Source: Nannochloropsis salina CCMP1776
Taxonomy: Eukaryota; Sar; Eustigmatophyceae; Eustigmatales; Monodopsidaceae
Assembly: GCA_004565275.1 (NCBI GenBank)
Contig: SDOX01000017.1
Location: 935-36,897 of the forward strand
Direction of reading: 5' to 3'
Length of the DNA: 35,963 nucleotides
Made by a program: the position numbers and the translations under genes. This document shows, in pieces, positions 5,529 through 33,652 of the stretch. The notes beneath the pieces are model-generated. The model did not search any database, was not told the DNA's origin, and saw only the letters and a list, made by a program, of their open reading frames with translations. Within the stretch, counting starts at the first letter, position 1; each line of letters starts with the position of its first letter.

Positions 5529-6290
5529 ATAAGCTCAAGTAGGAGGAATCGTTGTCTTGCAATGTGCGCTTGGACAGGGTGTGTACGTCTTCATCTTTTG
5601 CTAGCTGAGATATATGGCCAAGGACACAAGTGGTATTTTGAATAGAATTTTAAGTAGGAAAGGATAAAGACACTTCCTAAAGAAGACTGCAAGCAATGGG
5701 GACAAGTATTAAGTGCTTGAGCATCAAAGAGGGATAGTTCTTTAAAAGACGACACAAAAAGAGGAAAAAAACAACACGGTAAGTCTCATGAAGGGCTACT
5801 CACTCGACACATAATTGAAAAGTAATGACTTGATTATTTTTTTTTTAAATAAAAAGGAGACTTAAAAAATGATCGGATTAGAACAAAATGAGGCATATTT
5901 TGATTTCCAAGGTTCTGTTCATGTTGCATTCGTTTTGCGTTCTTTGAAAATGGATACTTGTGGACCCTAAAATTTCATTTTTAGGACGAACAGGCACGTC
6001 AGCTGACGCCGAAACTTCAAGGTCGTAGTGTTCGTGATCCGAGTCGTGATCCCAGACAGCTAATTTCGCACGATACGAAGGCATTTTCCTTGATATGGGA
6101 AATGTCAATGTGTGCAAGGTAGTACGTAGCAGTATTAAATCGATGGCCATTCCTGGTCTTTTCCTGCTGTTGTATTTTCGTGGAACGTCAAGCCATTATA
6201 TTTGCGTCTCATAAAGTTATTTTCGTATTTCATCACATTGTCTACATCACTTTGTTTTGCCTTGTGAAAATCAAGATTACAATAGGCACT
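5529..6290. other. Intergenic gap between PX gene and trehalose enzyme gene
   Basis: This AT-rich stretch contains the 3' untranslated region of the PX gene and the promoter/5' region of the next gene, both in the same direction. T-rich and A-rich runs occur near 5835-5860. No RNA gene or convincing coding region is seen. An open frame extends upstream of 6291 to an ATG at 6180, but its residues are AT-biased and look like untranslated leader. Confidence 0.4.
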
Positions 6291-9062
6291 ATGGCGCCTC
6301 CTTCTCCTCACTTTCCACCGACTGCATCCACATCTATGAGTACCTCCGGGCAGTCTCGGTTTTCTACGTTTGAGCCTCAGGATTTGTGCCGCCCTCAAGG
6401 TTCGCTTCACGATGGCCTTCCTCGCTCCACCCGCCGGCAAGTCCAAGCCCCCGATCGTATTCCACAGCCGATCTATCTGGGCATTGAAGTGGAGGTACTA
6501 GAGTCTCAGGAGGTGGTGCGGTACGGATTGTGCGCACATGACGGCTCCTACACGCTGGACTACTACGAAGAAACTATCGACGTTAGTCATTGCAATACGA
6601 CACCGGAGAAAGTTGAGTTTTTTGAAGCACATATTCTCCAGAAGCTGAAAGAATACCAATCGAGCATGAATGTCAAGGCTCATTTAATTGGCCTGGGCCT
6701 GCGAGTCTGTAACACCATGTGTTTTTTGAAACGGGGCTGCGCTACCATGTGTGTGGACTACGGACGTGAACGCGTGTTCAGTGTGTACGGCTCCGACGTT
6801 CCCTCCTTGTCTTCGCGTGTCTGGCTGGAACTTGACGCTATCCCCTTCGTCATGCGGACGCGGGGCCAAACACTGGACGAACGCGCCAGCACCGCGGTGC
6901 GTCAGGCGGTAGTGGCCTTATCCCCGCAATACCCCGGGAACATCCCGAGGGTGGTGGTGGGCTACCGGAACGAGGTGGAGATCGATTGCAACATGGACAT
7001 CCATTTGTATGACTTGGAACATTACCGACAATTTTGCTCGGAAGGTACCTGGCATGCAGTGTTGGCCATGGCCGATGAGCTACGGCAGCGGCAAATCAAG
7101 GTTTCTTACTTCAACTCCACCCCTCAAGGGGGGGGAGTGGCGTTGATGCGCCACGCCCTGTTCCGACTGAGCCATTACCTTCGGGTGAACACGCATTGGT
7201 TCGTGGCGACGCCGTCTCCGGATGTATTCAACATCACCAAGCGGAAATTCCACAATGTCCTGCAGGGCGTCGCGCCCCAGAATGTCTTTTTGGAAGAGGA
7301 AGAGAAGAAGAAGTGGCTGGAGTGGACGAAAATGAACGTGGAACGTCACTGGGACGACCCCGATGGACCCTTGATGACGTCGGACGTGATTGTCATTGAT
7401 GACCCGCAGGTGTGTGGCCTGATCCCGTGGATCCGACGCTTAAATCCAGAGGCGAAGATCGTCTACCGTTCTCACATTGAAGTCCGGGCCGACCTCATCC
7501 GCGACAACCCGCAGGGGCCGCAGGCGCAGACCTGGGACTTTCTTTGGTCTGCGATCAAGCAAGCCGACCTCTTTGTTTCCCACCCCGTGAAGAACTTTGT
7601 CCCCGACGACGTGCCTTTGGAAAACGTGGTGATGATGCCCGCCGCCACAGACCCGTTGGACGGATTGAACAAACCCCTGGACGACTTCAACTTCACCTAT
7701 TACCAACAGGTTTTCAATCGTATCTGCTACGATCAGGGCTCTCGGCGCGTAGATTGGGACCGTCCCTACATCACCCAAGTCGCGCGCTTCGACCCTTCCA
7801 AGGGCATCCCGGACGTCCTCTTAGCCTATCATCGACTTTACTGCAAATTTCTTGACGCGGGGGAAAAGAATCGTGTCGAGCCCCGTCGCAGCCATGACTC
7901 GAAAAAGGCGGAACCTGCCAATGTGGGGGATGGCGGCCAGCAGGAGACTGAGGAGGCGCGTGGGGAGGCTGAGTCGACAGAGGAGGGCACCGGATGGTCT
8001 ACGCTACACAGGCAGCTTCGCATGGAGGAAACGACGCTGCCCCAGCTAATTATTTGCGGACACGGCTCCGTGGACGATCCGGACGGGACGTGGGTGTTTG
8101 AAGAGGCGCATACGATGCTGAACAAGGAGGACTTTCGGGACCTCTGGCCCCACGTGACCATCGTGCGCATACCCCCTTGCGACCAGATTTTGAATGTGGT
8201 TTTACGGGGCGCCGTCTGCGCCTTGCAGCTCAGCCATCGCGAAGGCTTTGAAGTGAAAGTGACGGAAGCCATGGCCAAAGGTGTGCCGGTCGTGGCTTAC
8301 AAGGCGGGGGGCATTCCTTTCCAGATCCGGGACAAGGAGAACGGTTATCTGGTTCCGGTGGGTGATACAGAGACGGTAGCAGAGCACGTGTATTCCTTAT
8401 GTACGGATGCCGAGTTGAGGGAAAAGTTCTCACGGAAGGCCCGGGAAGAGATTGGAGAAGATTTCTTTACGGTCCATAATTGGGCGAATTGGGCCTATAT
8501 TTGGCTCAAAATTAATAACAAACCTCGTGCCCCGCCCACCCTTGAGGAGGTACTGGAGGTTAAAAACAAAACAAAAAAAGGGGAGAAGGACCAGCAGGTC
8601 AGGCATGATGTTGAGGAGGAGGGAGGGATGGAAGGTAACGGTGGGCGAAGCGACGAGGACGAGACGCTGGCTGCATTGGGCGAGGTCTGTCTGAATGTGG
8701 ACGGTAGTCGCAGTCCTTGTGCGCCCTCGTTGCATCGACGGCGCAAGGAAGCTCATGACGTGCTGGGGGGAGGGCGGTGGGTCAAGGACTTGTGGCAGGC
8801 CGAATACGTGAAGGGCGAAACGGACGAGGGGGTGCCACGTTACAAAGAACTACATGCCCATCACGTCGAGGCGCATGAGGCCAAGACGTGGGACCGCAAC
8901 ACCACCCTTCGGCAGGAACAATTCACGCCGCCCCCCTTTTTGATCGACCAGCGAAGAGGAAACATCGAGGGCGGTGACGACAGCCTCCCGCGCATCGTGT
9001 ATAAGCCCGGGCCGAACAGCAAGCTCTGGGTCCGAGATGCCGGCGATTTGGAGGAGGCGTGA
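6291..9062 (+). CDS. Trehalose synthase/phosphorylase-type glycosyltransferase (GT4)
   Basis: One uninterrupted exon encodes about 923 residues. The protein resembles the retaining GT4 enzymes known as fungal trehalose phosphorylase/synthase (Neurospora CCG-9 type) and prokaryotic TreT, which make or split trehalose with glucose-1-phosphate or NDP-glucose. The N-terminal domain includes YLGIEVEV and HDGSYTLDYYEE. A glycine-rich loop, STPQGGGVALMRH, marks the start of the glycosyltransferase fold. The second Rossmann domain contains TQVARFDPSKGIPDVL and the E-x7-E motif REGFEVKVTEAMAKG (Glu near residues 650 and 658). A charged, low-complexity insert of roughly 60 residues splits the second domain after FLDAGEKNR. 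The C-terminal 200 residues are acidic and poorly conserved by eye. Start 6291 was chosen over an in-frame ATG at 6180 because the extra residues look random. The exact donor substrate and reaction direction cannot be told from sequence. Confidence 0.85.
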   Translation: MAPPSPHFPPTASTSMSTSGQSRFSTFEPQDLCRPQGSLHDGLPRSTRRQVQAPDRIPQPIYLGIEVEVLESQEVVRYGLCAHDGSYTLDYYEETIDVSHCNTTPEKVEFFEAHILQKLKEYQSSMNVKAHLIGLGLRVCNTMCFLKRGCATMCVDYGRERVFSVYGSDVPSLSSRVWLELDAIPFVMRTRGQTLDERASTAVRQAVVALSPQYPGNIPRVVVGYRNEVEIDCNMDIHLYDLEHYRQFCSEGTWHAVLAMADELRQRQIKVSYFNSTPQGGGVALMRHALFRLSHYLRVNTHWFVATPSPDVFNITKRKFHNVLQGVAPQNVFLEEEEKKKWLEWTKMNVERHWDDPDGPLMTSDVIVIDDPQVCGLIPWIRRLNPEAKIVYRSHIEVRADLIRDNPQGPQAQTWDFLWSAIKQADLFVSHPVKNFVPDDVPLENVVMMPAATDPLDGLNKPLDDFNFTYYQQVFNRICYDQGSRRVDWDRPYITQVARFDPSKGIPDVLLAYHRLYCKFLDAGEKNRVEPRRSHDSKKAEPANVGDGGQQETEEARGEAESTEEGTGWSTLHRQLRMEETTLPQLIICGHGSVDDPDGTWVFEEAHTMLNKEDFRDLWPHVTIVRIPPCDQILNVVLRGAVCALQLSHREGFEVKVTEAMAKGVPVVAYKAGGIPFQIRDKENGYLVPVGDTETVAEHVYSLCTDAELREKFSRKAREEIGEDFFTVHNWANWAYIWLKINNKPRAPPTLEEVLEVKNKTKKGEKDQQVRHDVEEEGGMEGNGGRSDEDETLAALGEVCLNVDGSRSPCAPSLHRRRKEAHDVLGGGRWVKDLWQAEYVKGETDEGVPRYKELHAHHVEAHEAKTWDRNTTLRQEQFTPPPFLIDQRRGNIEGGDDSLPRIVYKPGPNSKLWVRDAGDLEEA

Positions 9063-9479: not shown

Positions 9480-11879
9480 CTATGTATCTGGGAGGATTTC
9501 AGTCACGATCCCCACCGCAACCGTCTCCCCCTTCTGTCGGAGGATAAATCGACCCAACGGCCGGGAATCCTCAAAACGCTCCACACACACGGGCCGAGCG
9601 CATTGAAATTCGACCAAGGCCAGCATGTTCCCTGTCAGGCACCGAGGACGCTCCTTCTTGACCTCGGCCGCCCCCCGCCCCTCCTCCGACAGGGGCTTGG
9701 CCAGGGTAGCCGTGAGACGCGTCGCATTCACGGGGATCTCCAGACTTTGCACGTGCATTTGAAAAGGCGTGCCTCGCAAAATGGGCACGCTCAAGGAGGA
9801 TAACGTGGTGATCTGGGCGGCGAAACGACACGAAACCGGCACGGCGGCTTTCCCTTTACACAAGACACTCCCAATCGATATCCGTGCTGGATCCACCCCT
9901 TGCAACGTGATCTCCGCGTGCTCCAAGGCCCCAGCTACCTCGGCCGGACTACCCTCCACCTCGATGCTTCGCACAACAGCCACGTCTCCAATGGGGAGGA
10001 TCAGGACTTTGGAGCCGGTTTTGACCCCACCCGAGAGGACTCGAACCGAGACGCCCACATTCTTCCCGGCGGGCGCCAGGTCGTTCACGATCATGCGCAG
10101 CGGTTTCCCCCGGGCTTCCCGCAAAAATTTGGCGGCGGGCAGGAAGTCGTCCATGGCCGTCAACAAGGACGGGCCCGTGTACCACTCGCGCAGCCCCCCC
10201 CCTCCTTCCTTCCCTCCCTCCCGCCCTCCCTCCTTCACGTTCTCCCCCGTCAGCCCACTCACAGGTACGAACCGGATCCGTTCGGACTTAAACCCGGTCT
10301 GCTCCAGGAAAGGCGTCAAGCTTGTGACGATACCCTGGTATCGGGCCTGAGACCAGGGCGGGTCTGCCGCGTCGAGTTTGTTCACCGCCACCAGGATCTG
10401 GTTCACCCCCAACGCCCGTGCCAGCAGGGCATGCTCCTTGGTTTGCCCCTGGCTGAGGCCGTCGCGACCGGTGCCCGCCCCGGCGAAACCGGCTTCGAAT
10501 TCCCCCGTCGTCGCGGGCACGACCAACAAGGCTACGTCCGCCTGGGCCGCCCCCACGATCATTTGCGGGACAAAGTCGGCGTGTCCGGGGGCGTCTAAGA
10601 GGGTGACGACCCGGTGGGGGAGTTCGATGCGTTTTTGGCCCACTTCCATGGTCACGCCATGCGCGCGCTCTTCCCCGTCTTCGTCCATCATCCAAGCCAA
10701 GTAAAAAGAAGCTTTGCCGAGGGCGCGGGCGTCCCGTTCGAATTTTCGCGCTTCCCGCACCGACACCGTCCCGGTAGAGACCAACACCTGGCCCATTAAG
10801 GTCGATTTCCCCGCGTCCACATGCCCGATCACCACCATCGCGATCCGTGCCTTCTCCCCCTCCTTCTCTCCCTCTTTTTTGGAAGGCAATACGTCCTCCT
10901 CCCACACCTCGGGATCCTTTGACAGCCCGCCCAGAGATGCCCGGGAGGCGATCACGTTCCCCGCGCCCGCCTGCGCTCCCTCGCAGCCGTCCTCTCCTTC
11001 TCCAAGACCCGGCGAGGCACTCTTGAAGCGAGGAGGGGGGGTGGAGGCCCGCGATAGGTGCACGCTCTGCACGCGGCTGGTCACCTCCTCAACCTCCCCG
11101 ACACTGTTGCTGCTGGTGGGGCGGCTCAAATTGCTGCTGCTGTTGTTCCTGCTCTGGTTTCCCAACAATAGATTCCCGCTCGACCGCCGTTGAGGTGTGG
11201 GCCGTACCAATTGCCCGGGAGGGAGGGGGGGAGGGAGGGAAGCAGTGCTCTCCGTCCCTGCCGTCAACCCTCTGCCTTGTTCTCCCCTTCCCCCATCCTC
11301 CGGTGAACTCAGGCGGGACGGAGAGGGCGTCACGACCCGGGATGGGACAGCCGAGGGAGGTTGAGAGGATGAAGGGGTGGAGGAGGAGGATGAGGAGGTG
11401 GCGGGGGGTGTGGATGGGGGAAGGAGGAGGAGGGCGGACAGGGCAACGTCTGCGTCGTAGTTGGCTTGACGCACGGCCGTACGAATCTGGTCGTCTGACA
11501 ATTCCCCAACTTGTCCGCTTCCCTTGATCAAATGGAAAGCCGGGTCCACTAAATCGGCGTCGAAAGCTTCGGAGATGGTCGCCAGGCGGGGATGTGTGCC
11601 TTTAACGTCTTCCTGGACCGGGGCCCGGGGTCCGGCTTGTGAGCTTCGTAATATTGGAGCGACCGGTGCGTTGTGTTGGGCCGCCGCGTGGTCCAAAAGG
11701 GATGACAAGGAGGCCCCATGGCTGCTAGGTAGGTGGCCCTGGAGCTGCTGACGACGGTGGTACGCATAGGTACCTTCGCCTTCTTCCTCCTCTTCCTCCT
11801 CTTCGTCTTCGTACCCATAGTCGTCATAGTCATCGTCGTAGCTGTATGTCCGATTCCGGACGGCGCGATGACGGGACAT
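9480..11879 (-). CDS. HBS1: HBS1-like translational GTPase (ribosome rescue)
   Basis: A single exon encodes 799 residues. HBS1 is an eRF3/EF-1alpha-family GTPase that acts with Dom34/Pelota to release stalled ribosomes (no-go and non-stop decay). The start MSRHRAVRNRTYSYDDD closely matches the N-terminus of animal HBS1L, which fixes the start codon. An HBS1 N-terminal helical domain follows near DLVDPAFHLIKGSG. A Ser/Pro/Asn-rich linker leads to the G domain at about residue 345. Visible motifs are G1 GHVDAGKST, the switch region ERAHGVTMEV, G3 DAPGHADF (about 427) and G4 NKLD (about 499). The two C-terminal beta-barrels end with the family-typical LGRFILRQKGETVAVGIVTEI. A GREGGKEGG insert sits after the G5 region. 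All key GTPase motifs are present, so the protein should be active. eRF3 and EF-1alpha are less likely because of the HBS1L-like N-terminus. Confidence 0.92.
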   Translation of the reverse strand: MSRHRAVRNRTYSYDDDYDDYGYEDEEEEEEEEGEGTYAYHRRQQLQGHLPSSHGASLSSLLDHAAAQHNAPVAPILRSSQAGPRAPVQEDVKGTHPRLATISEAFDADLVDPAFHLIKGSGQVGELSDDQIRTAVRQANYDADVALSALLLLPPSTPPATSSSSSSTPSSSQPPSAVPSRVVTPSPSRLSSPEDGGRGEQGRGLTAGTESTASLPPPLPPGQLVRPTPQRRSSGNLLLGNQSRNNSSSNLSRPTSSNSVGEVEEVTSRVQSVHLSRASTPPPRFKSASPGLGEGEDGCEGAQAGAGNVIASRASLGGLSKDPEVWEEDVLPSKKEGEKEGEKARIAMVVIGHVDAGKSTLMGQVLVSTGTVSVREARKFERDARALGKASFYLAWMMDEDGEERAHGVTMEVGQKRIELPHRVVTLLDAPGHADFVPQMIVGAAQADVALLVVPATTGEFEAGFAGAGTGRDGLSQGQTKEHALLARALGVNQILVAVNKLDAADPPWSQARYQGIVTSLTPFLEQTGFKSERIRFVPVSGLTGENVKEGGREGGKEGGGGLREWYTGPSLLTAMDDFLPAAKFLREARGKPLRMIVNDLAPAGKNVGVSVRVLSGGVKTGSKVLILPIGDVAVVRSIEVEGSPAEVAGALEHAEITLQGVDPARISIGSVLCKGKAAVPVSCRFAAQITTLSSLSVPILRGTPFQMHVQSLEIPVNATRLTATLAKPLSEEGRGAAEVKKERPRCLTGNMLALVEFQCARPVCVERFEDSRPLGRFILRQKGETVAVGIVTEILPDT

Positions 11880-13182
11880 GCTCGGCTACGGGAGAAGTGA
11901 AATACAAAATCTTGACCGCGTAGGAAAGGCTTTCGAAAAACTTGGAGGCTGAGTGGCGGGAATGACGTTGTGGAGGCTTCTGGCCACGCCTAGTTGACCG
12001 ACCTCGGTTGCGTGTAGATGACCACCGTTTCGCATAAGACCGCCTAAGGCTGGCCTGGCGTACGGATCTGTCGAGTGAAAGATATGCGTTTTGGTGAGAA
12101 TGTGTCGGATGGGCGGCGACGGGACGCAAAAGCAAGCACTTTGTAGCTAGGGGCATGGAGGGACGGATGAAGGCAATAGGTACTAGTAGTACCTCTTCGT
12201 AGTACGAGGTCTGATACAGAGGGATCAAGAGCGGTAGAAATGTTGCCAAGCACATCACAGTGAAAAGCTCATGCTGACACACAAGGTATTCAGCACCACT
12301 GTGACCTTCAGTCTCGTGAACGGGCCTTTTGTTACGCCCGTGTCACGTGTGTTTTGCTGGGATCTTGAGCCTCGCTGACAGCAAACGTGAGGAGCACCAA
12401 TGAGCGAGAGGCGGCTTGCGACGTCCTCTTTTTAAAGAACCGGTACATAAATTATTTGGTTTTCACCCGTACCATCAAAGACATAGGGCATGCTGTGAAG
12501 TGGTCTCCCCCAAAGTGACGCCCGGCTTGCCTCTTACCGGTACGCACCAAGTATTTATTTCCTCCCTCTGCTGAGCATTGACACACTGTTCTTCCTATAT
12601 TTGGTCCTGTTATCCACTCTTTCTCTATTTCCGTACTTTAATCCGCCCTTTTCACGTATGAAAAGTGCACAGGTATATCGATGGAATAACAGAGCTTCCA
12701 ATGGGCTTGCATCGTACGTATGTATATATGTCCTGACCATGTCGCACCTGCTTCCAACACACTTCGTGCATTCCCACCGTTTTTTTCTCACTCCGTCGAT
12801 CCCTCCTCTTCGATAAACTTTTGTCTGGACTCTCGAAATATCAGGCAATGAAGTGATTGAAGCATCCCAATGGGAAAATTCCTTTGATTTCGCGGTTTCA
12901 TGGCATGAAAGAAACGCCACCAACAAGTCTTGAGCATCTCTAACCTCCTCCCGGAAAGCATTTCTTCAACCACCTTCGACTCCGTCGTGGGAATGCTCCT
13001 TCGAAAAATACCATGGAACTATCAAAGCAATGCCAATGGCCCTCCCCACAAGATTAAATTTTCGATCTCGACGCCAAAGAAACGTTCGACATTCCAGCGG
13101 CAAGGCCAGCACCCAGTCATTCGTTCTTTTCCTCCCCCTGCTTCCCTCCCTCTTTCCCTCCCCCCCTCTCTCCTTCCCTCAG
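11880..13182. other. Intergenic gap between HBS1 and the GST-HIT gene
   Basis: About 1.3 kb holds the promoter and 5' region of HBS1 on the right of its start, and the 3' region of the GST-HIT gene up to 13182. Short open frames on both strands (for example 12282-11830 and 12926-12555 on minus) show no family features or splice support. No RNA gene is recognised. The section 13130-13180 is CCCT-rich on the plus strand. Confidence 0.4.
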
Positions 13183-14821
13183 CTACCCCGGCGGCCATGC
13201 CAACGGGCGCCCCGCCAAGATATGCATGTGAAGATGGTGCACCGATTGGCCGGCCTCCTCGCCGTCATTCACTATCACCCGGTAACCCCCCTCGATGTTT
13301 TCCTGCCGCACAATCTCCGCCACCGCCACCATCATCTCCCCCAGCACCCCCTTCTGCTCCCGGCTTGCTTTCCGCAGGGCCGTCAGCCCCGCACGCCGCT
13401 TGGGAATCACGAGAATGTGGACTGGGGCCTGAGGGGCGATGTCTCGGAAAGCCAACACTTTGTCGTTCTCGAACACAACTTGAGACGGCAGGGCCTTGGC
13501 AAGGATCTGGTCGAAGACGGTGGCGGGCGCCAGGTCCTGAAGGTCTGCGCCCAGGATGCTGCTCCATCGCCGTTTCTCTTCCCAGCCTTGGATGCCGAGG
13601 ATGATTTCCGAATGGACCTTGGGATTGGGGGGGGAAGAGGTGGCAATCAATCAGAACTTAAAGAATTTCATGCCGTTGCTTCCATCAGCGCTTCCTAATG
13701 ACGGTCCTAGAGGTAGAATATGCTGATCTACACATTCATTCCCCTGGAGGAGGGACAGTTGAAAATTTAAATTCAAACCCGCCGTTGCACAGGGGAGACT
13801 GACGCAGTCGTCCAAACGCCACAAGAGGGACGACATAGCCACCACAACGGGCAGGATAGAAGAAGGAGAGGAAAGGATGGAAGGAGGAAAAGAGGGAGGG
13901 AAGGAGACCGCACCTTTTGAAAAGCCGCTTCGTTCGCTAGGAGGTAATCCCACCACTTGGTGAGCTTGGGCCCAAACACCTCCTGATACGTCCAGCCAAA
14001 ATGATTCGGCAGTATCTGTTCCAAGAAAACACCAGTGGCGAAGAGGGTGGCGTCCGCCATGGACTTCTCGGCCCCGCACAGGTAAGGGCCGTTACTGTCC
14101 GTTAACTCCTCGAGGAGGGCCATTTGTTTTTTTAAATCCTGGAGGGCGTCCTCCCGGTTGTCGAAGATGCCGAAGGGGGGCGCGGCCTTATACATACATC
14201 CTTGGACGGTGGTAATGTACATGTCATGGAAGCGGCAGATGAGGTCGCTTTTGGTCCGCGCGGCTAGGGTGGAAGGGAGGTAGGATGGGCCGGTCTCGAC
14301 GTATTTGTGGACGAGATGGCGGAGGATGGTGTCGGATTCAAAGATTTGAAAATCGGCGAGCGTGTGGTCGATGAGCACGGGGACTTTGCCTTGGGGGTTG
14401 ATGGAGGTAAGGGGGCCATCCGGTTTCTTGATTTCAATCTATTGAGAAAAGGGAAGAGTGTGGGAGGGAGGAAGGAAAGAAGAGAGGGAAAGAGGGAGGG
14501 AGGGAGGGAGGGAGGAAGGGAGGGAGTGAACGCGTGCACACCCAGGACGTGGTCCTCGCCGCCACTGCTACCTCGACAAGCCATTCCATCATCTCCACGT
14601 GCACGCATGTATTTTTTTGCGCTTTGTGGCCCCGTGTTCTATCCCCACACCATCTTTCATCCCGAGAAAGGTTATTGAGGACCCCGAACCCTCCTTTCCC
14701 GTCCTCTGCGGGAGGCGCTCACCTTGTCCTGAAGGCCCTTGTCGTAGATGACCACGCGGCATCGTCCTCCATTGTTGGAGACCGGAAAATCGTAGAGTGT
14801 CGCATCTTTACCCGCCGTCAT
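13183..14821 (-). CDS. Fusion of glutathione S-transferase and HINT-type histidine-triad domain
   Basis: Three minus-strand exons, 14821-14723, 14438-13914 and 13617-13183, join in phase 0 and encode 352 residues. Residues 1-33 begin the GST thioredoxin fold (LYDFPVSNNGG). Exon 2 supplies GKVPVLI with the cis-Pro (about 53), the gamma-Glu-binding FES (about 66-68) and the helical GST domain with GPYLCGAEKSMADATLF. The third exon starts VHSEIILGIQGWEEKRRW, the usual last helix of a GST, and runs directly into a HINT domain: FDQILAKALPSQVVFENDKV, LAFRDIAPQAPVHILVIPKR, and the triad SVHHLHMHILAGRP with His 336, 338 and 340. GSTs conjugate or reduce via glutathione; HINT proteins hydrolyse AMP-amidates. 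No ATG lies in frame at the head of the HIT exon, so it cannot easily stand alone. Combined function is unknown. The acceptor AAG before 13617 is less usual than CAG. Confidence 0.82.
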
Positions 14822-15871
14822 TTGGATCCTTGTGCGGCCCTCCGCTCGAATGGAAGCACCCGTCCACAGCGATCCTTGAGGAGAGACCGAGGCTGGAGTC
14901 AAAAAACCTTGAGCCAGGCCAAAAAGGAGGACGGTTGAGACCTAATGTTGACGCAGCGTGTATAGATAGGCGAATGAGTATGTCTTCATACCATTTTGGC
15001 GGTCCCTTTGCGACCCAAACACAGAAAGCTCGCAGTGCCACATTGATACTTGAGGTTGCTGTCACTTCCAGCCAGTGCCCTTTCTATGCACTGCAAACAA
15101 AAATCGTCAAATATTTGTCTCGTTCACTCTGCCAACAACGAGCTTCACAAGCCACGACTTGATAACATGTGACCACGAAATCCGAGGCAGGGAAGTGATG
15201 GGGGTGGGGAGGCGAGAGGAGGAGGCGGCTAGCAGCAACAATGCAAAAACCATTTCCCAGAAACCAACCTACCAACACAAAGACGTCGCCAACGCGTAAT
15301 CCCATCGCACAGACTTTTCCTCTCTTCTCCTGTGCGTGTGTTTGTGTAGCGGGCGCGGCCGTGAGCCAGAAATTGCGGCACCGGGTGGTCAACTTCTCGG
15401 ACGTGTGTCACTCCCTCGATTAATGGATCGAAGCTTCCTCCCGCTTCTTCCTTTCAATTCCCTGTGGTCGTGAACAAACAAGCAAGGAGACCGTCGAGTA
15501 TCACTCGGGCAGTCGGCAACAATCGGCTCTGTGAGATCGTTGGCACCATTTAGCGTCTTTGGCCTCTTTTCTGGGTTTTCTGCCTCTCGCATTCTCACTC
15601 CCAAGCCTGCGTCGTGCTTCTCGAGGAGAGGGCGGGCGTTAAATTGCATGTCCGTCACAGAGAACGACCAAACCTGCGAAACGACGACCGATTGCTCACC
15701 TGAAATCCCATAAATGTAGTTTACCTTCCATTTCTTGGCATTCCAGGGCGCGCGGGGGAAGAAAAAGACGATCCAGACGCGCCAACCACAGAGAGTGCAA
15801 CCATACACCTCTTCCGGCGCCATCACGCAGGCAGCTTTCGGGAGTACCCTGCTGAAGGGATCAAAATACCC
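14822..15871. other. Divergent intergenic gap between GST-HIT gene and first SOS1 gene
   Basis: About 1.05 kb lies between the two start codons and should contain both promoters. No RNA gene or coding exon is supported. A minus-strand open frame at 15826-15389 is present but has no recognisable domain and overlaps the expected leader of the antiporter gene. Confidence 0.4.
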
Positions 15872-18800
15872 ATGGCAGACGCTGCCAGCGACCCGACCAC
15901 CTCAAATATTTCTCACGATGTAGGCATGGGGACTTTCGTCTTGGCTCTGGCGTTGGGAATTGTAGCCCGGGCCTGCCTCTCATCCTTTGTCCGTCTCCCG
16001 TACACGTGCCTCGTCCTCATCTTCGGACTTCTCTATGGCTTTCTTATCTACACGGAAGTCGGGATCACGGGGTCGGACATCTTCAGTCGATCCGCAGACC
16101 TGTGGATCAATATCTCGCCCGAAGCTATCTTGACGGTGATCCTGCCTATCCTGATCTTCGGTTCGTCCTTCGCCAGTGACCTTCACTTGTTCTTGCAGCA
16201 GCTGACTCCTGTGTTGACGCTTGCCGGGCCTGCTGTGCTCGTGAACGCAGCACTACTGGGGCTGACGGCTAAATACGTGCTACCGTACAACTGGGACTGG
16301 ATGACCTCACTTATGGTAGGGTCGATGCTGTCAGCGACAGACCCTGTGGCCGTGGTGGCGATATTGAAGGAGCTGGGAGTGGTGGAAAGCCTGTCCATCC
16401 TGATCGACGGGGAGAGCTTGCTGAACGACGGCTTTGCCATTGTCCTGTACACGATATTCAGCCGACTGGTGGTACACGAAGAGACCCTGTCCGTCTTGGA
16501 GACGGTGGAGTCCGCCGTCATCCTCTGCCTGGGCGGGCCGGCCATAGGGCTGGTGGTAGGGGCGTTGACCAGCTACATCTTAGGCGTGCTTTTGAACGAC
16601 CCAGCGTCGGAAATCACGAGTGAGTGCGTGGGGGTTACGTTTGGGACGGTTTTACCCGGGAAATGTGGACTGTGTGGCCACATTTGGCATGGGAGGCCGC
16701 CTGGCAGGATCGCATGGGGGCCGCAGACTGACAGAAGGTTTCACCGCATACCACCCTCTCACCCATTTTTTTCCAATGTCTTGGTCTTTTCTACCAGTGA
16801 CCATCCTCTGCGGCTACGGTGCCTACCTCCTTGCCGAGCTCGCCGAAGCCTCTGGTGTCCTCTCCATGGTGGTGGCCGGTCTCTACCTCTCCTTCCACGG
16901 TTTAGGCCGCATCTCCGCCCGCGTCACCGGTTCGCTCAAGTCCTTCTGGGCCATGGCGGCATTCATCAGCGAGACCATTATTTTCTTTGTCAGCGGCTTG
17001 ATCATGGCGGAGAAAGCCCTGATTTCCGAGACGGTCCAGGGCCGCGACTGGGGCTACCTCTTCCTTCTCTACCTGATCGTAAACGCCACCCGCTTCGTCG
17101 GGGTTTTCCTCTTCTTCCCCACCTTAGCCCGTGGTCCCTACGGTATCAATTGGCGCCAAGCCGTTCTGCTCTCGTGGGGAGGATTGCGGGGTGCAGTCTC
17201 CTTAACTTTGGCCTTGGTCGTGAGTCAGGAAGAGGGAATTCCGGAGGAAACCCGCGCACTCATCCTCTTCTTCACGGCTGGCATTGTCCTTCTGACCATA
17301 TTGATCAACGGCTCTACTTGCAAGCTCGTGCTTCAGAAGCTCAAGCTGAACAATCCTACCCGGGTGGAGCAGGAACTTTACATTCGCGCCATGAATCTGA
17401 TCGAAAACGAGCTCGAGGTGTCGTTGCTGAAGCTCAAGAACGACAAGTACTTGGGAAATGCGGATTGGAACGTGGTTTATCGTTATCTGCCCGTGTTCTC
17501 GCCGCAAATTTATTGGCACCGGGTAAGGGAAGGGCATATTTGTCTGGACGAGGCAGAGATTGCCTTGGTGGGCCGGTACGTGCGGGAAGAGGAGGAGGAA
17601 GAAGAAGGAGGGGAGGAAGGTGGGTGGAAGGAAGGACGGAAACGGAGCCACAGTTTGATGGGGCACACTATGGTGGGGTCGGGCCCCGGGAGCCTCTTGA
17701 GCCCCCTCTTCTCCTGCTGTGGAGGGAGTCGGGAGGGCGGGGGAGGGGGAGGAAGCAAGTACGAGGAGTTACCTCCCCGCTTGCGTCATCGCTGGCGGGA
17801 ATACACGAGCCGTTTCAACGGAAAATTGAAATCTGGGATCGACGGAGAGAGATTGAGCGGGATTCGGAAGCAAGTGTGGGAGAGCTTAGCATTGGCCCGC
17901 GGCGTGTTTCCTCCCGCCACCCCCTCGGCCCTCCCTCCGCCCCCCCCTCCCTCTCACCCGCATGCCTTCGGTTTGTTGCCCCTCCCGTCCTGGGTGCACG
18001 GGGAGGAGAAGGGCGAGAAGGGTGGAAGGGATGGCAAGGCAAAAGAGGGGAAGGAGCAGGGAGGCAAGGGGGGGCCGGGGGTCGGGAAGGAGGGCGGCGG
18101 TTGGCACTTCCGACGTGCCACGCGCGACATGGAGAGCGCGGGGGAGAAGGAAGGGCAGAAGGAGGGAGGGAGGGAAGGAGGAAAAGGAGAGAGCGTGCTG
18201 CCCGCCCAAGGGCCCCTGGACTTTCAGCCACTGGTCTCCAGGCACCACCACTCCCTCGATGACCCACGCCCTCCCCAGGTCCTCAAGGGGTCCCCGCAGC
18301 GGCTCATGCCTGTGCTCCCCGAGGCCTCCCGGTCGTTGCCTACTGCTTCGGTCCCCCCCTCTCGGAACCTCTTTGCGAACCTCTTCACCGCTCCCACTCC
18401 CCCTCCTCCTCCATCCTCCCACGCCCCTGCCGCCGCCTCCCTCCCATCCGTCGACGCCAGCCTGGACCCGCCCGTCAATGTGGAGAACCCTCCCCTCCCT
18501 CCTTCCTTCCCTCCCTCCCTCCGTCCCTCCTCGCGGGCTCTCAGGGAAGCCCGCATTCGCTTGCTCACGGTTCTCCGGCATGTCTACTCCTCCTCCTTCC
18601 ACTCCGGCCTCCTCTCCCCCCCAGGCCTCCGAGCTTTTGAACGGAACCTCTCCATACTCATCACCCAGCCTTCCCTCCCCCTCAACGAATGGGCGGGTTT
18701 GGAGGGACACATTCTTCTGCCGTTACGGGCCGTCAAAGCACGGCCCAACTGGCGGCGATTGCCGGTGATGGGAGGCGTCGTGGAGTTTTTCCTCTTTCAA

Positions 18801-21412
18801 AAGTTGGCTTTTTTCTTTGAATTGGCCGTCGTCTTTATCGAAGCGCATTCGAGCATCAACATAAAATTGAGCGAACTCTTCGGTAAAAACGGGCCCGTGA
18901 CCCGGCAGCTTGAGAAGGAAGTGGAGGAGGAAGTGAGCAAGGCCAAGGCCGCCCTGGAAGAGTTCGTGCCCGTCTTCCCCGACATCATCAACAGCGTCAA
19001 GACGGAAATGGCGGCCCGTGTCCTCCTGCACAAGTGTCGCTCCATGCTGGAGGCGGCCGAGGAGAGCGGGTCCTTGGAAACGCGGGAGTTTGAAGACGCG
19101 ATCCGGGAGGTAAGTCTTACATTAGTGCGTTAGTTTACCATATGTGAAGGTGTGTACATGGGGAACGGTCGTGCGTGAGTACCGACCTTGGCTTCCCTCG
19201 TCTTCGGTGGGCAACCGAAATATGCTATCACCCGCTGCCAGCCACCGAGAAAAATGCACTTAGGTCTTGTTTTTTCCTGGCCCCTTTCCTGGCCTCCCTC
19301 CCTCCCTCCCTCCCTCCCTCCCTCCTTCCCTCCCTCCCTCCCACCCAGGTGGACGACTCCATGGTCAAGCTCTACGACCACACCCACGCCGAGGCCCCCG
19401 CCCCCCGTTCGTCCCTCCTAGCCAGCCTCTCCTTCCTCCGCTTCCTCCCTCCCTCCCAGCGCGACAGTCTCTTCGCATCCCCGTCCTCCCCCTTCTGCCG
19501 CGACGTGTACGTGCGGAGCGACACCTGCTTCCTCCCCAAAACGTCCTCCCTCCCTTCCTCCCCCCCTGCCTCCCTCCCGGGCTGGTACGTGATAGTTCGG
19601 GGCTCCGTAGCGGTGGATCCCGACGTGGAGGAGGAGGAGGCGTCGGAAAGCCACATTTTGCAACAGGGCTCTGTAGTGGGTTATGTGGAATCCTTGCTTC
19701 AGCACCCTTCGATCCAAGTGCCCTATTCCTACACGGCGGCCTCCTTTGTCCACCTCTTGTACTTCGACCGGGCCCTCCTGATGGCGGAAGCGGGGCGGCG
19801 ATGGAGGGAGGGGGAAGAAGAATTGTTGAGGTCGCTCTGGTGGGTGGTGGCGGCCTTGGAGTTGAAGCAAGAGGGTGGGAGGGAGGGCGGGGAGGAGGGC
19901 GGGAGGGAGGGCGTCGGTCTGCAGGAATGCTCACTGGCACAACTGGCGTCTCTTTTGGGCGAGGCGACGCTTTTGCACCTCCCTGAAGGTGGACAGGGAG
20001 GGAGGGAGGGAGGGAGGGAGACTATGCGCCGGATGAACCTGATGACGCTGACAAGGGGGGGGACCCTGAGGAACTTGCTGCCTCTGACCGGACGGGGGCC
20101 GAACGAGGGAGGGAGGGAGGGTGGGAGGGAGGGAAAGAAGGATGGGCTGGTGGAGATGACGATGGGGGCGCCCGGGACGTCTTTGGCAAGTCAGTTCCAG
20201 GAAGCCTTGCAACAGCAACAACAACAACCACAGCAACCGCAACAGCAACAGCAACAGCACGAGGTTTTTGAAGCCGATGCGACCAGCCACCTGGTGCTTT
20301 TGACCGGGTGGATGGAGCGGGTGGATGCTGGGGGCCAGGCCGAGGCGGGGAAAGGGAAGGAGAGGGAGAGACGTCCTCCCCTTTGGGGAGGTCGGGGACG
20401 AGAGAGGGAGGGAGGGAAGGAGGAGAAGGACAAGAAAGGCCCGGGGGGGGTCACTGGGGCCTTGACAGCCATTTTGAGCACGGTGGGCGGGGCAGGGGGG
20501 GGAAAGGGAGGCGGTGGCGGAGACAGTGGGACAAGGTCGCCTGCGATGCCTCTCGTGGCGCCGCCTACCATGGTGGTCCCCTACCTCCCTGCTGGCCGTT
20601 ACACGCTGGCGCCCGGAACCGTGGCCTTTGTCCTACCCGAGAGTAAATGCCGACTGGTCCGGCAGCAGGTGCAGCGTCGGTCCCCTCACACAGAGTCGGC
20701 GCCTCCGAAGGAGGAGGAGGAAGGAGGTGAGGAGGGAGAAGGGGAGGGCGAGGGTGGAGAGCGTGGGGGCAGGAGCCTATTGGGAAAGGAAGGGGAGGGA
20801 TTGATCCCTCATCGCTTCACAAAAGCCGCCTCGGTGGGATCCAGGCATCCACCGGCTGCGCGCCAATCTCCTTCTCAGCCCGACACGCCCCTGCTCTCGG
20901 TCCATTTTCGGTCCTACACGGGCTCCCCGGAGGGGGGGAAGGCGGGAGGATGGGGGGGAGGTGCAGGTGCCCTGAAGCCACGCCGGTCGCTTTCGCATGC
21001 TGCGGGTGGGCAGCATCATCGCACAGTCGGAGGTTACAATTTGGTGGACCCGTTGCCCTTTGATAGGAGCGGGGAAAAAGGCGACCCGGAAGAAGACGTG
21101 GCGGAGGAGCAGCCGCCATGGCAAGAAGCTGAGGAGGAAAGCGGGTTGAGGATGCGACGACGCCGACCTTCGCCCCCGCTGGGCATTGTGGGTGCCCCCA
21201 TGGCGTTGTACGGCAATTCTCCTCTAGCGGGGTCGGCAGGGGGGGTTGAAAGTAGTGAGCTGAGGAGAAGGAACAGCGCATCGTCGGATCAGGGGAGGGA
21301 AGGAGATGGATACGGAAATAGGGATGGAGGAGGGGACATGGACGCCGGGGAGTCGACTGAAATTCGTCTGAGCCGAAGTCTGTCAAAGAGCGGGGGTTCT
21401 AAGGGAGTGTGA
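15872..21412 (+). CDS. SOS1-type Na+/H+ antiporter, copy 1
   Basis: Exons 15872-16619, 16798-19109 and 19349-21412 join in phase to give 1707 residues, somewhat longer than plant SOS1 (about 1150). Members are plasma-membrane CPA1 exchangers that extrude Na+ against H+. The membrane domain spans about residues 20-430, with ATDPVAVVAILKELG (Asp157), the ion-site motif GESLLNDG (Asn185-Asp186) and GGLRGAVSL (Arg380). The long cytosolic part has ordered helical blocks (RHVYSSSFHSGLLS; KLAFFFELAVVFIEAH) separated by Gly/Arg/Glu- and Pro-rich inserts. A cyclic-nucleotide-binding-like fold starts near residue 1100 (GWYVIVRGSV, GSVVGYVESLLQHP) and is interrupted by inserts, with a second half at VVPYLPAGRYTLAPG. 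A poly-Gln tract lies near 20204-20260. The end is IRLSRSLSKSGGSKGV. The neighbour at 22622 is a tandem duplicate. Confidence 0.9.
19296..19343 (+). repeat. CCCT simple repeat before the third exon of SOS1 copy 1
   Basis: Repeated CCCT units lie directly upstream of the acceptor at 19348 in the intron 19110-19348. They are pyrimidine-rich on the sense strand and probably act as the polypyrimidine tract. Confidence 0.75.
20204..20260 (+). repeat. CAA/CAG repeat encoding poly-Gln in SOS1 copy 1
   Basis: A run of CAA and CAG codons encodes a Gln tract broken by a few Pro residues, in the cytosolic tail between the two halves of the CNBD-like fold. The corresponding part of copy 2 (near 26830-26860) has no such tract, so the expansion is specific to this copy or was lost from the other. 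Confidence 0.85.
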
Positions 21413-22621
21413 GGTGGACATGGATGGAAGAGCAGCGATGGGAATACAAAGAAGAAGGCGGAAAATGATGAGGCGCAGGAAGCGTGCATGCTGCACCGAG
21501 AGGGATAGACGGAGAAATAGAATAGGAAATTATCGAAGGAAAGCATGGAAATTTCAAAATTTCGTTGATGTATGTGTACATGGAAAGCACCGACGTGAAA
21601 AATTGTCAGGGGACAAAAACCAGGATGATAGATGAAGACGATAGGGTTCAGGATGGAGATGAGAAGGGAAAAAAAGGAAAAATCCACAACTTCAACAACG
21701 ACCGTGCTCGCTGCATGTTACGAGATTCTTACTGGAGCGGAGCATTAAAATGCCATGTGTTTGATGAAATTACTGTTCTTAGTTCATTCAAATGAGTCCA
21801 GGCCCCAAACTGAGCGGGGAGAGAAATTCAAAATTTCAAATCGTCGGTCGATGCCTGCGGGCGGGCCGACCCTGTTACATTCTGACACAAAAAACAATTG
21901 CCGCAGTGGACCATGCGAAGGCAACATTGTTGCAAGGACGATGTGTGTTGAGAGTTTGTTTTGATAGAGTGGGCGGAGCGAGCCCATGAATGTATATAAT
22001 GCGCGTAATCAGTCAGGCGAACAATATATTCTGCCGCTAGTATCTATGGCATCACGCTACCACGATTGATGTCCCATGGCCCTTTTCCCTGTTGCCTTCA
22101 ACTTTCCCCCCCTCAATGCCCGCTCTTGCAAACGAGTCTGTCATGTGCCTATAGACATGTCCAGTGTTAACACAGAAATGGTTGACACACGCTCATAGTA
22201 CTTCCATCGTGGGAGGTTGCGAGAGAACACATTTCAGCACCTGTATATTCACCGACTCCCGCAAGATGGGAGGCCTTCCGCTGCTGGTACCTATCCAACC
22301 ATAACACCTTTTCCTGAACTTATTTATTCTTAGATCATTGATCGTGCACTGAGGCTGGTAGCAGCAAAAGAGGCCACTCGTGGAGTGGTAAAAGAAAAGC
22401 GCCAGCTCAAGTGGCACGGATCCACAGCAAGCGGAACACTCCCTGCAAGACAGTTGAAATAGCCGCCTCGTTTTGGAAGAGGGTGCTCAAGCTCCTCTTT
22501 TTCACATTTCTACGCGACCTCGGAGCTTTAGAACAAGAGAAAATTTAATTTACCGTACAAGGGTACAAAGGGGCTTTTGCGCCCTGTCTCGGGCACCCTT
22601 CTTTGCGCTGAGACGGTACAA
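21413..22621. other. Intergenic gap between the two SOS1 genes
   Basis: About 1.2 kb separates the tandem copies. It should contain the 3' region of copy 1 and the promoter of copy 2. AT-rich motifs of the form AAATTTCAAAATTT occur at about 21548-21563 and 21826-21842. A TATATAA string lies near 21993-22000 but is over 600 bp from the next start. No gene is recognised. By eye the gap shows no clear similarity to the gap upstream of copy 1. Confidence 0.4.
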
Positions 22622-25600
22622 ATGGCAGATTTTACAGAGCACTCGGATCCACATCCATCCTCCTCAGCGGATGTGGGTATGGGGACTTTCGTCATGGCCC
22701 TTACTCTGGGAATCATCGCTCGGGCCTATCTGTCTTCCCTGATCCGTCTCCCGTACACGTGCCTCGTCCTCATCTTTGGACTTCTCTATGGCTTTATTAT
22801 CTACACGGAAGTCGGGATCACGGGATCGGACATCTTCAGTCGATCCGCAGACCTGTGGATCAATATCTCGCCCGAAGCTATCTTGACGGTGATCCTGCCT
22901 ATCCTGATCTTCGGTTCGTCCTTCGCCAGTGACCTTCACCTGTTCTTGCAGCAGCTGACTCCTGTGTTGACGCTTGCCGGCCCTGCTGTGCTTGTCAATA
23001 CAGCCCTACTGGGGCTGACGGCTAAATACGTGCTACCGTACGGCTGGGACTGGGCCACATCCTTCATGGTAGGGTCGATGCTGTCAGCGACAGACCCTGT
23101 GGCCGTGGTGGCGATATTGAAGGAGCTGGGAGTGGTGGAAAGCCTGTCCATCCTGATCGACGGGGAGAGCTTGCTGAACGACGGCTTTGCCATTGTCCTG
23201 TACACGATATTCAGCCGACTCGTCCTGCACGAAGAGACCTTCTCGCCATTGGAGACGTTGGAGGCGGCCGTTACTCTCTGTCTGGGCGGGCCGGCCATAG
23301 GGGTGGTGGTAGGGGCCGCCACAAGCTACATCCTCGGCACGCTCATCAACGACTCCGCCTCTGAAATTACCGGTGCGTTTTTAAAACGCCAGGTCTTATG
23401 AGTCAGCGGAGGGGAACGGGCGGGGCAATCGCTTCCTTGTCCTCCTTGAGGCCCCCGGGGGACTCTGGCTCTCTCCCACGAGCAACTCACCGAACCCTCC
23501 TCATTTCCTCCCTTTTCCAGTGACCATCCTCTGCGGCTACGGTGCCTACCTCCTTGCCGAGCTCGCTGAAGCCTCTGGTGTCCTCTCCATGGTGGTGGCC
23601 GGTCTCTACCTCTCCTTCCACAGCGTCGGGCGTATCTCCGCCCGGGTCACCCGTTCATTGACCTCCTTCTGGGCCATGGCGGCCTTTATTACCGAGACCA
23701 TTATTTTCTTTGTCAGCGGCTTGATCATGGCGGAGAAAGCCTTGGTCTCAGAGACTATCTTGCGGCGCGACTGGGGCTACCTCTTCCTTTTCTATCTCAT
23801 CCTGAACGCTACCCGCTTCGTCGGGGTTTTCCTCTTCTTCCCCACCTTAGCCCGTGGTCCCTACGGTATCAATTGGCGCCAAGCCGTCCTGCTCTCGTAC
23901 GGAGGATTGCGGGGTGCAGTCTCCTTAACTTTGGCCTTGGTCGTGAGTCAGGAAGAGGGAATTCCGGAGGAAACCCGCGCACTCATCCTCTTCTTCACGG
24001 CTGGCATTGTCCTTCTGACCATATTGATCAACGGCTCTACTTGCAAGCTCGTGCTTCAGAAGCTCAAGCTGAACAATCCTACCCGGGTGGAGCAGGAACT
24101 TTACATTCGCGCCATGAATCTGATCGAAAACGAGCTCGAGGTCTTCGCAGGGAAGCTTAAGAACGACAAGTATCTGGGAAGTGCGGATTGGAACGTGGTT
24201 TATCGTTATCTACCCGTGTTCTCGCCGCAAATTTATTGGCACCGGGTAAGGGAAGGACACCTTTGTCTGGACGAGGCAGAGATTGCCTTAGTGGGCCGGT
24301 ACGTGCGGGAAAATGAGAGTCAGGAGAGAAAAGGGAAGGAAGAAGGGGGGGGCTTCAGCGATGAGGAGTGGGGCGCAGGTCATGGCAGAGTGGAGGAAAA
24401 CGGGGAGGCCCTTGGGCCCCACAAGTCGTTCTTTGGGAGTTTTCTCTTTCGACCCTTCGCCTGCGTTCTCTCTATGATGGGCTACAAACCTGGCAAGGAC
24501 GGAGGGGGAGGGGAAGAGGAGTGCAGCTACGAGGAGCTTCCCACCGGCCTTCGTCGCCGCTGGCGGGAGTACACGAGCCGATTCAACGGAAATTTGAATA
24601 CCGGGGTCGATGGCGAGATGCTGTGTGCGATTCGGAAAAAGGTGTGGCAGGGTTTGGTGGGGACGCGGGGAGGGATACCTGGCGCGCGTCCTGCTCTTCC
24701 TCCCGCCCTCCCTCCCTCCCGCCCTCCCCCCGCCAAGCCTACGGCTACGGACAGCGACTCAATGGAGGGTGGAAAGGCGCGCATGATCCGAAGCCGGAGT
24801 TTGGGCGGGGCGATGCTGCGGGGAGGAAGGGATGGAGGGCGGGATGGAGGGCGGGAGGGAGGGCGGGGAGGCGAGTGGTCAGCACCGGGGAGCGTCCGGG
24901 TGAGAGGACATGCCAAGGACGCGCCAACGAGTCAAAACCCTTTGGATTTCCAACCCTTCGCGCCCCGACCTCCGACGGAACGCGGGCCCGCGAAGACCGA
25001 GGAGGCAGCCAGGCTCGCGAAGGAGAAGGCGCTGCGCCTCCCCCCTTCCTCCTCCCCGCCCTCCATCTCCGCCGACTTCTCCCTTCCCCGCCCGCACGAC
25101 CCTGGCCACACCTCCCGCCCGGCCCTGCCTCAATTCACCCCTCCCCCGCCCTCCCTCCCGCCCTCCCTTCCGCCCTGCTCCCACACACTGACCGAGGCCC
25201 GCCTCCGCCTTTACACCGTGCTCAAGCACGTCTATTCCTCCTCCTTCTACTCCGGCCTCCTCTCCCCCCGGGGCTTGCGGGCCTTCGAGCACAACATCTC
25301 CACCCTCCTGATGGACACGTCGGTACCCCTGAATGAATGGGCTGGCCTCGAGCACCACATCCTCTTTCCCCTCCGCGCCGTCCGCGCCCAAGCGCGACTT
25401 CGGCGGCTGCCCTTGGTGGGAAGGGCGGTGCAATACCTCCTGGGGAAAAAACTGGCTTTTTTCTTTGAATTGGCCGTCGTCTTTATCCAGTCGCACTCGA
25501 ACGCGCACAAAAAACTGAACGAACTGTTCGGTAAAAACGGGCCCGTGACCCGGCAGCTTGAGAAGGAAGTGGAGGAGGAAGTGAGCAAGGCCAAGGCCGC

Positions 25601-29738: not shown

Positions 29739-29819
29739 GGTATCGTGCCCGAGTGGTTAAGGGGCCGCACTCAAGTTGCGGTGGAGCGATCCGCGCGTGT
29801 TCAAATCACGTCGATACCA
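29739..29819 (+). tRNA. tRNA-Leu, anticodon CAA
   Basis: The sequence folds as a class II tRNA with a long variable arm. The acceptor stem pairs GGTATCG (29739-29745) with CGATACC (29812-29818), followed by discriminator A at 29819. The anticodon stem pairs CCGCA with TGCGG around the loop CTCAAGT, giving anticodon CAA, which reads UUG Leu. The T-arm contains GTGTTCAAATCAC. The variable arm is expected for Leu. No intron is present, although tRNA-Leu(CAA) is often intron-containing in other eukaryotes. CCA is not encoded, as expected for a nuclear gene. Confidence 0.93.
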
Positions 29820-32554: not shown

Positions 32555-33652
32555 GGTACAACGGAAAGAAGGAGGGTGTACTGTACATATGAAGAGGAGA
32601 TGGAGTTAGAGGGGGGCGGGAGCCAATGGACAGCACCCTCCGAAGGCCAACCCCGTGCGCGTATAACGCTGGAGTCAACGATCCTGGCGGCTGCGTGTGA
32701 GAAGCTGTGCCTTTTTCTCAGCATAATGCGTCGCAATGACCACCGTTTGGTCCAGGTACTCAGTCCTAAACACTATCTCCTAGGCGGGGAGGGGGGTAGG
32801 CATCGGCCGCAACGTCGATATGGCGCTGTGACGAGTACACGGGCCAAAAACCGTCCCGCGAACGAATGAGAAGGGTTTTCTTGACGGTACAGGAGGTGGG
32901 GTGAAAATCCATGCACATAATGTCGACCAGCATCAATAAAATCACAGTTAAACCCCAGGGCTTCTCTCAGTCTCAGCCGTCTCCTCGCTCCACTGCAAGT
33001 TAGGGCCGTACCGGTCAAGACAAAAGGGTCCCAGAACACAGGACACACCCGTCAACGGACGATAAAAAAGGTGGCAGGAATGTAGGTATGGCGTACTCCA
33101 AAGGCGTGGGGCTTCGTGGGCGGGATCGTGGCCGTGCTTCCGTCTTTTACCGTTACCTCGCAGAAGGCCATTGCCGAACATGGAATTAATCCCTTGGCGA
33201 GAGACCTGAAAATATCCCAAAAGCGACAAGGGGAAACGAGCGAGACGTGGCCTCGCCCTGGAGGAGAGCTATGCCGCAAGGGTGTGGTGGCCGCGTGTGT
33301 CTTCTTTGGATGGAGTCTTTGGTGCGTTGTGTCAGCATAGTTTGTGCGGGGCATGGTTTATTTTTTGACAAGTATCTTGCCGCACGGGAAGACTTCTTGT
33401 GCAATATGTACCAGGACAAATATCATCCTCGAAATGGGAGCCCGGTGAAACTTCCCAGCGCGCATCGCACCGTGATTTGGGACAAGGACGCGTGACGCTC
33501 CTTATATCATGAGGTCAAACGCTAAAATATGGTGCACATGCATGGATTTTATGCCTCCTCTGCACCACTCCGGACCCCCCCATCTTCCTACCTCCATCTC
33601 CATCCCTCCCCCTTGTACCCTTCGTCCCTTTTTCAACTTTTAAGGCCCAACA
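32555..33652. other. Divergent intergenic gap between carrier gene and IPI1
   Basis: About 1.1 kb lies between two start codons and should hold both promoters. Short overlapping open frames around 33050-33500 show no family features. Pyrimidine-rich sequence at 33545-33640 lies just before the IPI1 start and may be its leader. No RNA gene is recognised. Confidence 0.4.

Follow-up and report, generated by a model that had tools for sequence, protein, structure and literature searches.

Little is known, to our knowledge, about the true substrates of HINT proteins in vivo. A GST fold within a multidomain protein, the arrangement found at the locus described here, also occurs in eEF1B-gamma and in hemerythrin- and Iota-class GSTs, and we know of no HIT domain in any of these. 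Hemerythrin and Iota are both named as GST classes in a published account (PMC7730656). On the HIT side, published work describes cleavage by HINT1 of phosphoramidates, mixed anhydrides, and thiophosphates, with release of H2S from the last (PMC8775712), activity of Arabidopsis HINT4 on adenosine phosphosulfate (PMC7710942), and conversion by FHIT of adenosine phosphosulfate to AMP-NH2 (PMC8704414). The HINT4 paper also describes, in N. gaditana, a HINT protein, NgHIT1, that is found in mitochondria and plastids and that has a PTS2 at residues 4-12 and a 68-residue first exon, together with two more HIT homologues, NgHIT2 and NgHIT3, which are given there by accession only (PMC7710942). Joining of a HIT-superfamily domain to a second enzyme has a described example in worm and fly NIT-FHIT, which combines a domain of the FHIT branch with a nitrilase (PMC4860965).

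The window analysed here (the whole stretch of 35,963 nucleotides of Nannochloropsis salina DNA) contains, on its minus strand, what is probably, judging from sequence, a fusion gene of two well-known domains, GST and HINT, with both active sites intact. The three-exon model (Table 1) joins to 352 residues ending at TAG; both introns are GT-AG, and the exon lengths are all multiples of 3. These three phase-0 exons had been proposed, with the same boundaries, by an earlier sequence-only reading of the window, and they are borne out. The intron-2 acceptor in the model is AAG, which is less usual than CAG. A three-row alignment with maize GSTF3 and PcUre2p4 places an 8-residue gap (net 6) in the GST N-domain directly after the exon 1/2 join, and this join is therefore the least secure part of the model. 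Two ways of altering the 5' part of the model were considered but not adopted: an in-phase scan of intron 1 for a missing mini-exon gave 10 formal candidates, none of which, by eye, had a good acceptor or strand-like sequence, and a longer upstream exon chain (MGLRVGDV...) gave no Pfam match at E 1. The CCCT-type tract that intron 1 carries on its coding strand corresponds to a GGGA tetranucleotide array (14462-14526, 16.2 copies).

Table 1. Features of the GST-HINT gene model and of the candidate leader upstream of it (positions in the window).
Feature	Position	Strand	Description
Candidate upstream start codon (GCCAAAATGG)	14992..14994	-	directly before candidate 50-base intron 14942-14991 (GTATGA...CATTAG); candidate
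Candidate upstream coding stretch, in frame with exon 1	14822..14941	-	possible bipartite plastid leader (VSTVLLFGLAQG^FLTPASVSPQG...); candidate
Exon 1	14723..14821	-	99 bases, phase 0; first strand and helix of GST N-domain, with Ser15
Intron 1	14439..14722	-	284 bases, GTGAGC...AATAG; long CCCT-type tract on coding strand
Exon 2	13914..14438	-	525 bases, phase 0; remaining GST N-domain (P53, E67-S68) and most of helical C-domain (S159-x-x-D162)
Intron 2	13618..13913	-	296 bases, GTGCGG...CCCAAG
Exon 3	13183..13617	-	435 bases, phase 0; last GST segment (from residue 209, through GWEEKRRW), linker, complete HINT domain (His275, Asn325, Ser333, H336/H338/H340, C-terminal WPPG), stop TAG

Judged by its residues, the HIT half is a canonical HINT. 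Pfam places a HIT domain at residues 251-346 (7.8e-26), the best NCBIfam match is a purine nucleoside phosphoramidase model (below its cut-off), and the closest solved structures are human HINT2 (5e-32) and HINT1 (3e-31), in an alignment that reaches the last residue and includes WPPG. The triad reads H336-L-H338-M-H340-I-L, the HxHxHxx form of the HINT branch. The whole domain can be aligned with HINT1 and HINT2 proteins, including NgHIT1, at 45-48% identity, and when the domain is aligned with NgHIT1 and HINT2 in three rows, the upstream His275, Asn325, Ser333, the triad histidines, and WPPG are all invariant; we take the first three to be His51, Asn99, and Ser107 in HINT1 terms, with the roles known from HINT1 work. 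The structure 1ems also matched the HIT half, and the protein resembles NIT-FHIT in that a HIT-superfamily domain is joined to a second enzyme; however, the domains joined here are HINT and GST, and the full-length protein, scanned against Pfam at E 0.1, gave only GST families, HIT, and DcpS_C, with no nitrilase domain, so that identity as a NIT-FHIT was rejected.

The other half is, on the same kind of evidence, a member of the GST superfamily, with a thioredoxin-like N-domain and a glutathione site comprising the cis-Pro and Glu-Ser. GST_N_3 (Pfam) matches residues 9-81 above its cut-off (3e-10); GST_C_2 matches residues 128-195 below its cut-off (6.3e-4), and phmmer alignments to GST structures pass through this region. 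Among solved structures, PcUre2p4 (2e-9) and maize GSTF3 (2.5e-9) match the GST half best; plant DHAR1 reaches 2e-5. The layout of the N-domain is that of GSTF3 (phi) and of fungal Ure2p-like GSTs, and P53 (the cis-Pro) and E67-S68 are invariant with GSTF3 and PcUre2p4 in the three-row alignment; in contrast to these proteins, the fusion has a shorter stretch after the exon 1/2 join and is joined to a HINT. Ser15 aligns without gaps to GSTF3 Ser11, presumably the catalytic residue, as in serine-type GSTs, whereas PcUre2p4, the best GST match, has Gly there. The active-site position reads FPVSNNGG and holds no Cys, the first Cys of the protein being residue 21; since the DHAR motif carries what we take to be a catalytic Cys, where the fusion has Ser, identity as a dehydroascorbate reductase was rejected. 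The GST half thus has a serine site like that of the phi class and a tail like that of DHAR.

The same fusion was looked for in prokaryotes, in viral contigs, and in the literature. A GST-sized stretch preceded HINT in none of the 80 best bacterial HINT loci (the best 80 of at least 568 confirmed; longest stretch 127 aa), five of which (L033, L044, L078, L079, and L099) have fewer than 600 bases upstream and provide a poor test of fusion. Among the matches listed for a cyanobacterial set, that of the phylum of a Phormidium (194 genomes, 189 with matches), none starts before query residue 212, and among those listed for the set of the phylum of a Lysobacterales MAG (Pseudomonadota; 398 genomes, 329 matched at E 1e-10, a threshold at which GST-only matches could not appear) the earliest start is query residue 206. 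The main GST part is accordingly not reached by any of the matches listed for these 592 prokaryote genomes, and we infer that a fused relative of similar sequence should have ranked first in such lists. Of six loci with long reported frames, four (L113, L114, L116, and L118) had, by eye, no GST, and in the other two (L115 and L117) no HIT frame passed the filter used; the frames read in L113 and L118 are 129 and 125 aa, vs. 397 and 519 aa as reported by the search. Three pattern matches in viral contigs include no relative, and the titles and abstract openings among the matches listed for the open-access literature contain no description of a GST-HIT fusion. NgHIT1, the solved HINTs, and the 80 best bacterial HINTs are small proteins without GST, whereas in the fusion a GST precedes a HINT that has diverged further. 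We conclude that, within the prokaryote genomes and open-access literature covered, the combination of GST and HINT is new, its parts being known.

The N. salina assembly (26.5 Mb, 103 contigs) contains six HIT loci. One of them is a separate HINT gene, whose RLx5HL motif (PTS2) occupies residues 4-12 and whose possible first exon is exactly 68 residues long. It fits NgHIT1 in PTS2 position and first-exon length as given for N. gaditana, a fit that points to N. gaditana or a close relative as the probable host; of the two further N. gaditana homologues, NgHIT2 or NgHIT3 may be the present fusion gene (PMC7710942). The presence of a separate HINT gene would leave the fused copy free to specialise. 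Since NgHIT1 is placed in plastids in the same paper, the plastid may already hold a HINT and would not need the fused copy. In a tree of 52 HIT rows (kept from 91 possible rows after removal of near-copies, with cyanobacterial L106 and L111 among the rows left out), the fused HIT half lies on a long branch (0.94, vs. 0.48 for NgHIT1), and for that reason its activity may have shifted. The branch is unresolved, at an open fork with cyanobacterial, planctomycete, and other rows, and recent duplication of the separate HINT gene is unsupported. For the GST half, the sole match in the genome at E 0.1 is its own locus; the GST_N_3 model has 16 genome matches at E 0.1 or better, including exon 2 of the fusion gene.

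Upstream of the gene, the sequence is consistent with a possible plastid leader. Use of the ATG at 14994 with the candidate 50-base intron would lengthen the protein by 41 residues to 393, the added part beginning with a hydrophobic stretch followed by AQG^FLTPASVSP; the frame upstream of the exon-1 ATG is open for 40 codons to a TAG, and the same TAG ends the acceptor-like CATTAG. The junction AQG^FLTP resembles bipartite leaders of red-lineage secondary plastids, which are described as a signal peptide, cleaved so that Phe stands at +1, and a transit peptide behind it (PMC4329603). The leader pattern, in a test devised after the motif had been seen, matches 24 of 181,612 real positions (one counted twice, in overlapping loci) vs. 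15, 14, 14, 9, and 10 in Markov-resampled sequence. The candidate intron is short relative to the 230-base average given for N. oceanica introns (PMC3499364). Elsewhere in the genome, hydrophobic leaders whose end reads A/G-F/Y-x-P or similar occur at five GST loci (L015-L019); the leader shares one frame with the GST in L017 and L018 and lies near it in L015, L016, and L019, which suggests, at the level of sequence, a set of plastid GSTs. L013 and L018 are long GST frames (621 and 574 aa) with leaders that look plastid-like by eye and with long C-terminal extensions, and a further HIT protein (L003) has a leader containing ASFAFAS and is possibly plastid-targeted.

The neighbouring genes in the window are of several kinds. 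The plus strand carries two Na+/H+ exchanger genes in head-to-tail order (15704-19133 and 22532-25811), each divided between two long open frames; the first is divergent from the GST-HINT gene. On the minus strand, 9480-11885 encodes a translation GTPase, possibly of the HBS1 type (named by eye), in which a long N-terminal part accompanies the EF-Tu/eEF1A domains. The plus strand also holds an open frame of 979 residues whose domains are of the trehalose-synthase type and of glycosyltransferase group 1 (6123-9062), a frame with the N-terminal domain of Ipi1, of the Rix1 complex in ribosome maturation (33644-34819), and a tRNA-Leu with anticodon CAA (29739-29819).

Interpretation of the locus depends on whether its two halves form one protein. 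Exon 3 contains both GWEEK, from residue 219, and TVFDQ, from residue 241, where the HINT begins, so the GST/HINT border lies inside one exon, as the sequence-only reading had claimed in pointing to this exon and to its HLHMHIL motif; also as claimed there, the HIT exon has no ATG of its own near its head, since the open frame of exon 3, 155 residues long, reaches its first Met at residue 106, already within the HIT domain, so that the HIT part cannot start in this frame without another exon. The first 15 residues after the exon 2/3 join resemble the C-terminal tail of plant DHAR1 (5el8), with the pattern F-x-K...E...GW..K matched across the splice join and a score of 19, and the GST therefore seems to run across this splice. 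The score was reached by 246 of 200,000 shuffles and by 13 of the 52,485 stop-free six-frame 15-mers of the window, figures that flatter the likeness because DHAR1 was chosen as best match (E 0.11 for 93 residues). The three in-phase acceptors in the first 120 bases of the exon-3 frame (13618, 13576, and 13537) would each still yield the fusion. According to the contrary hypothesis, that there are two genes or alternative transcripts, the GST would end inside intron 2 and a HIT protein would start from an unseen exon: a CAG acceptor near 13745, named in the sequence-only reading as a possible refutation, opens a 30-residue tail to a stop, a retained intron 2 stays open for 46 codons, and the model itself depends on the AAG acceptor. 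However, both alternative tails are unlike the DHAR1 tail (scores of -9 for the CAG acceptor and -16 for retention, vs. +19) and were rejected, and no Met occurs in the first half of the HIT frame, making this hypothesis very improbable. We conclude that a GST-HINT fusion from one gene is supported.

With regard to function, we lean towards the proposal that a single nuclear gene encodes one 352-residue polypeptide, with an N-terminal GST, a short linker, and a C-terminal HINT, that would rid one compartment, possibly the plastid, of reactive adenylates and electrophiles; the protein is most likely a dimeric bifunctional clean-up enzyme. Both halves would fold and be active: the GST half would bind and activate glutathione through Ser15, and the HINT half, with its middle histidine, His338, would attack AMP adducts at phosphorus and release AMP, its substrates being phosphoramidates, mixed anhydrides, thiophosphates, and perhaps adenosine phosphosulfate. 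The protein would be at least a dimer, since both folds usually dimerise. By analogy with the described HIT proteins, the placement of a GST beside a HINT suggests joint removal of reactive adenylates and electrophiles; the two sites may also be linked chemically, and glutathione chemistry may be tied to AMP-adduct hydrolysis, as first proposed in the sequence-only reading. It is doubtful, in our view, that the GST half only docks or dimerises and so places a working HINT near a partner, as in translation factors and synthetase complexes. In eEF1B-gamma and some tRNA synthetases, GST domains do act as docking modules, HINT1 has aminoacyl-adenylates among its substrates and a connection to lysyl-tRNA synthetase, and the genome has a frame resembling eEF1B-gamma (L021, name by eye), but the glutathione-site positions Ser15, P53, and E67-S68 are kept, and pure docking would not need them. 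We consider it unlikely that two neighbouring genes merged neutrally, leaving parts that work or decay independently and a join without meaning of its own: the long branch of the HIT half, the existence of the separate HINT gene, and the absence of a conserved copy among the matches listed for the prokaryote genomes are in keeping with such a merger, whereas the compared HINT catalytic positions, WPPG, and the GST site are all intact, and neither half looks decayed. A more specific version of the two-enzyme idea, a plastid-imported two-site enzyme special to eustigmatophytes, in which the HINT would cleave adenylated sulfur compounds (adenosine phosphosulfate, AMP thio-adducts) and the GST would supply or capture glutathione for chemistry on them, is improbable.

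If the two-site plastid enzyme did exist, it would be a physical tie between glutathione and the uncommon nucleotides of sulfur metabolism. More broadly, if the fusion is conserved, the GST half would serve as a Rosetta-stone clue, as the nitrilase does for FHIT, that one process brings together HINT hydrolysis and glutathione chemistry, a clue that would be open to test in a transformable alga.
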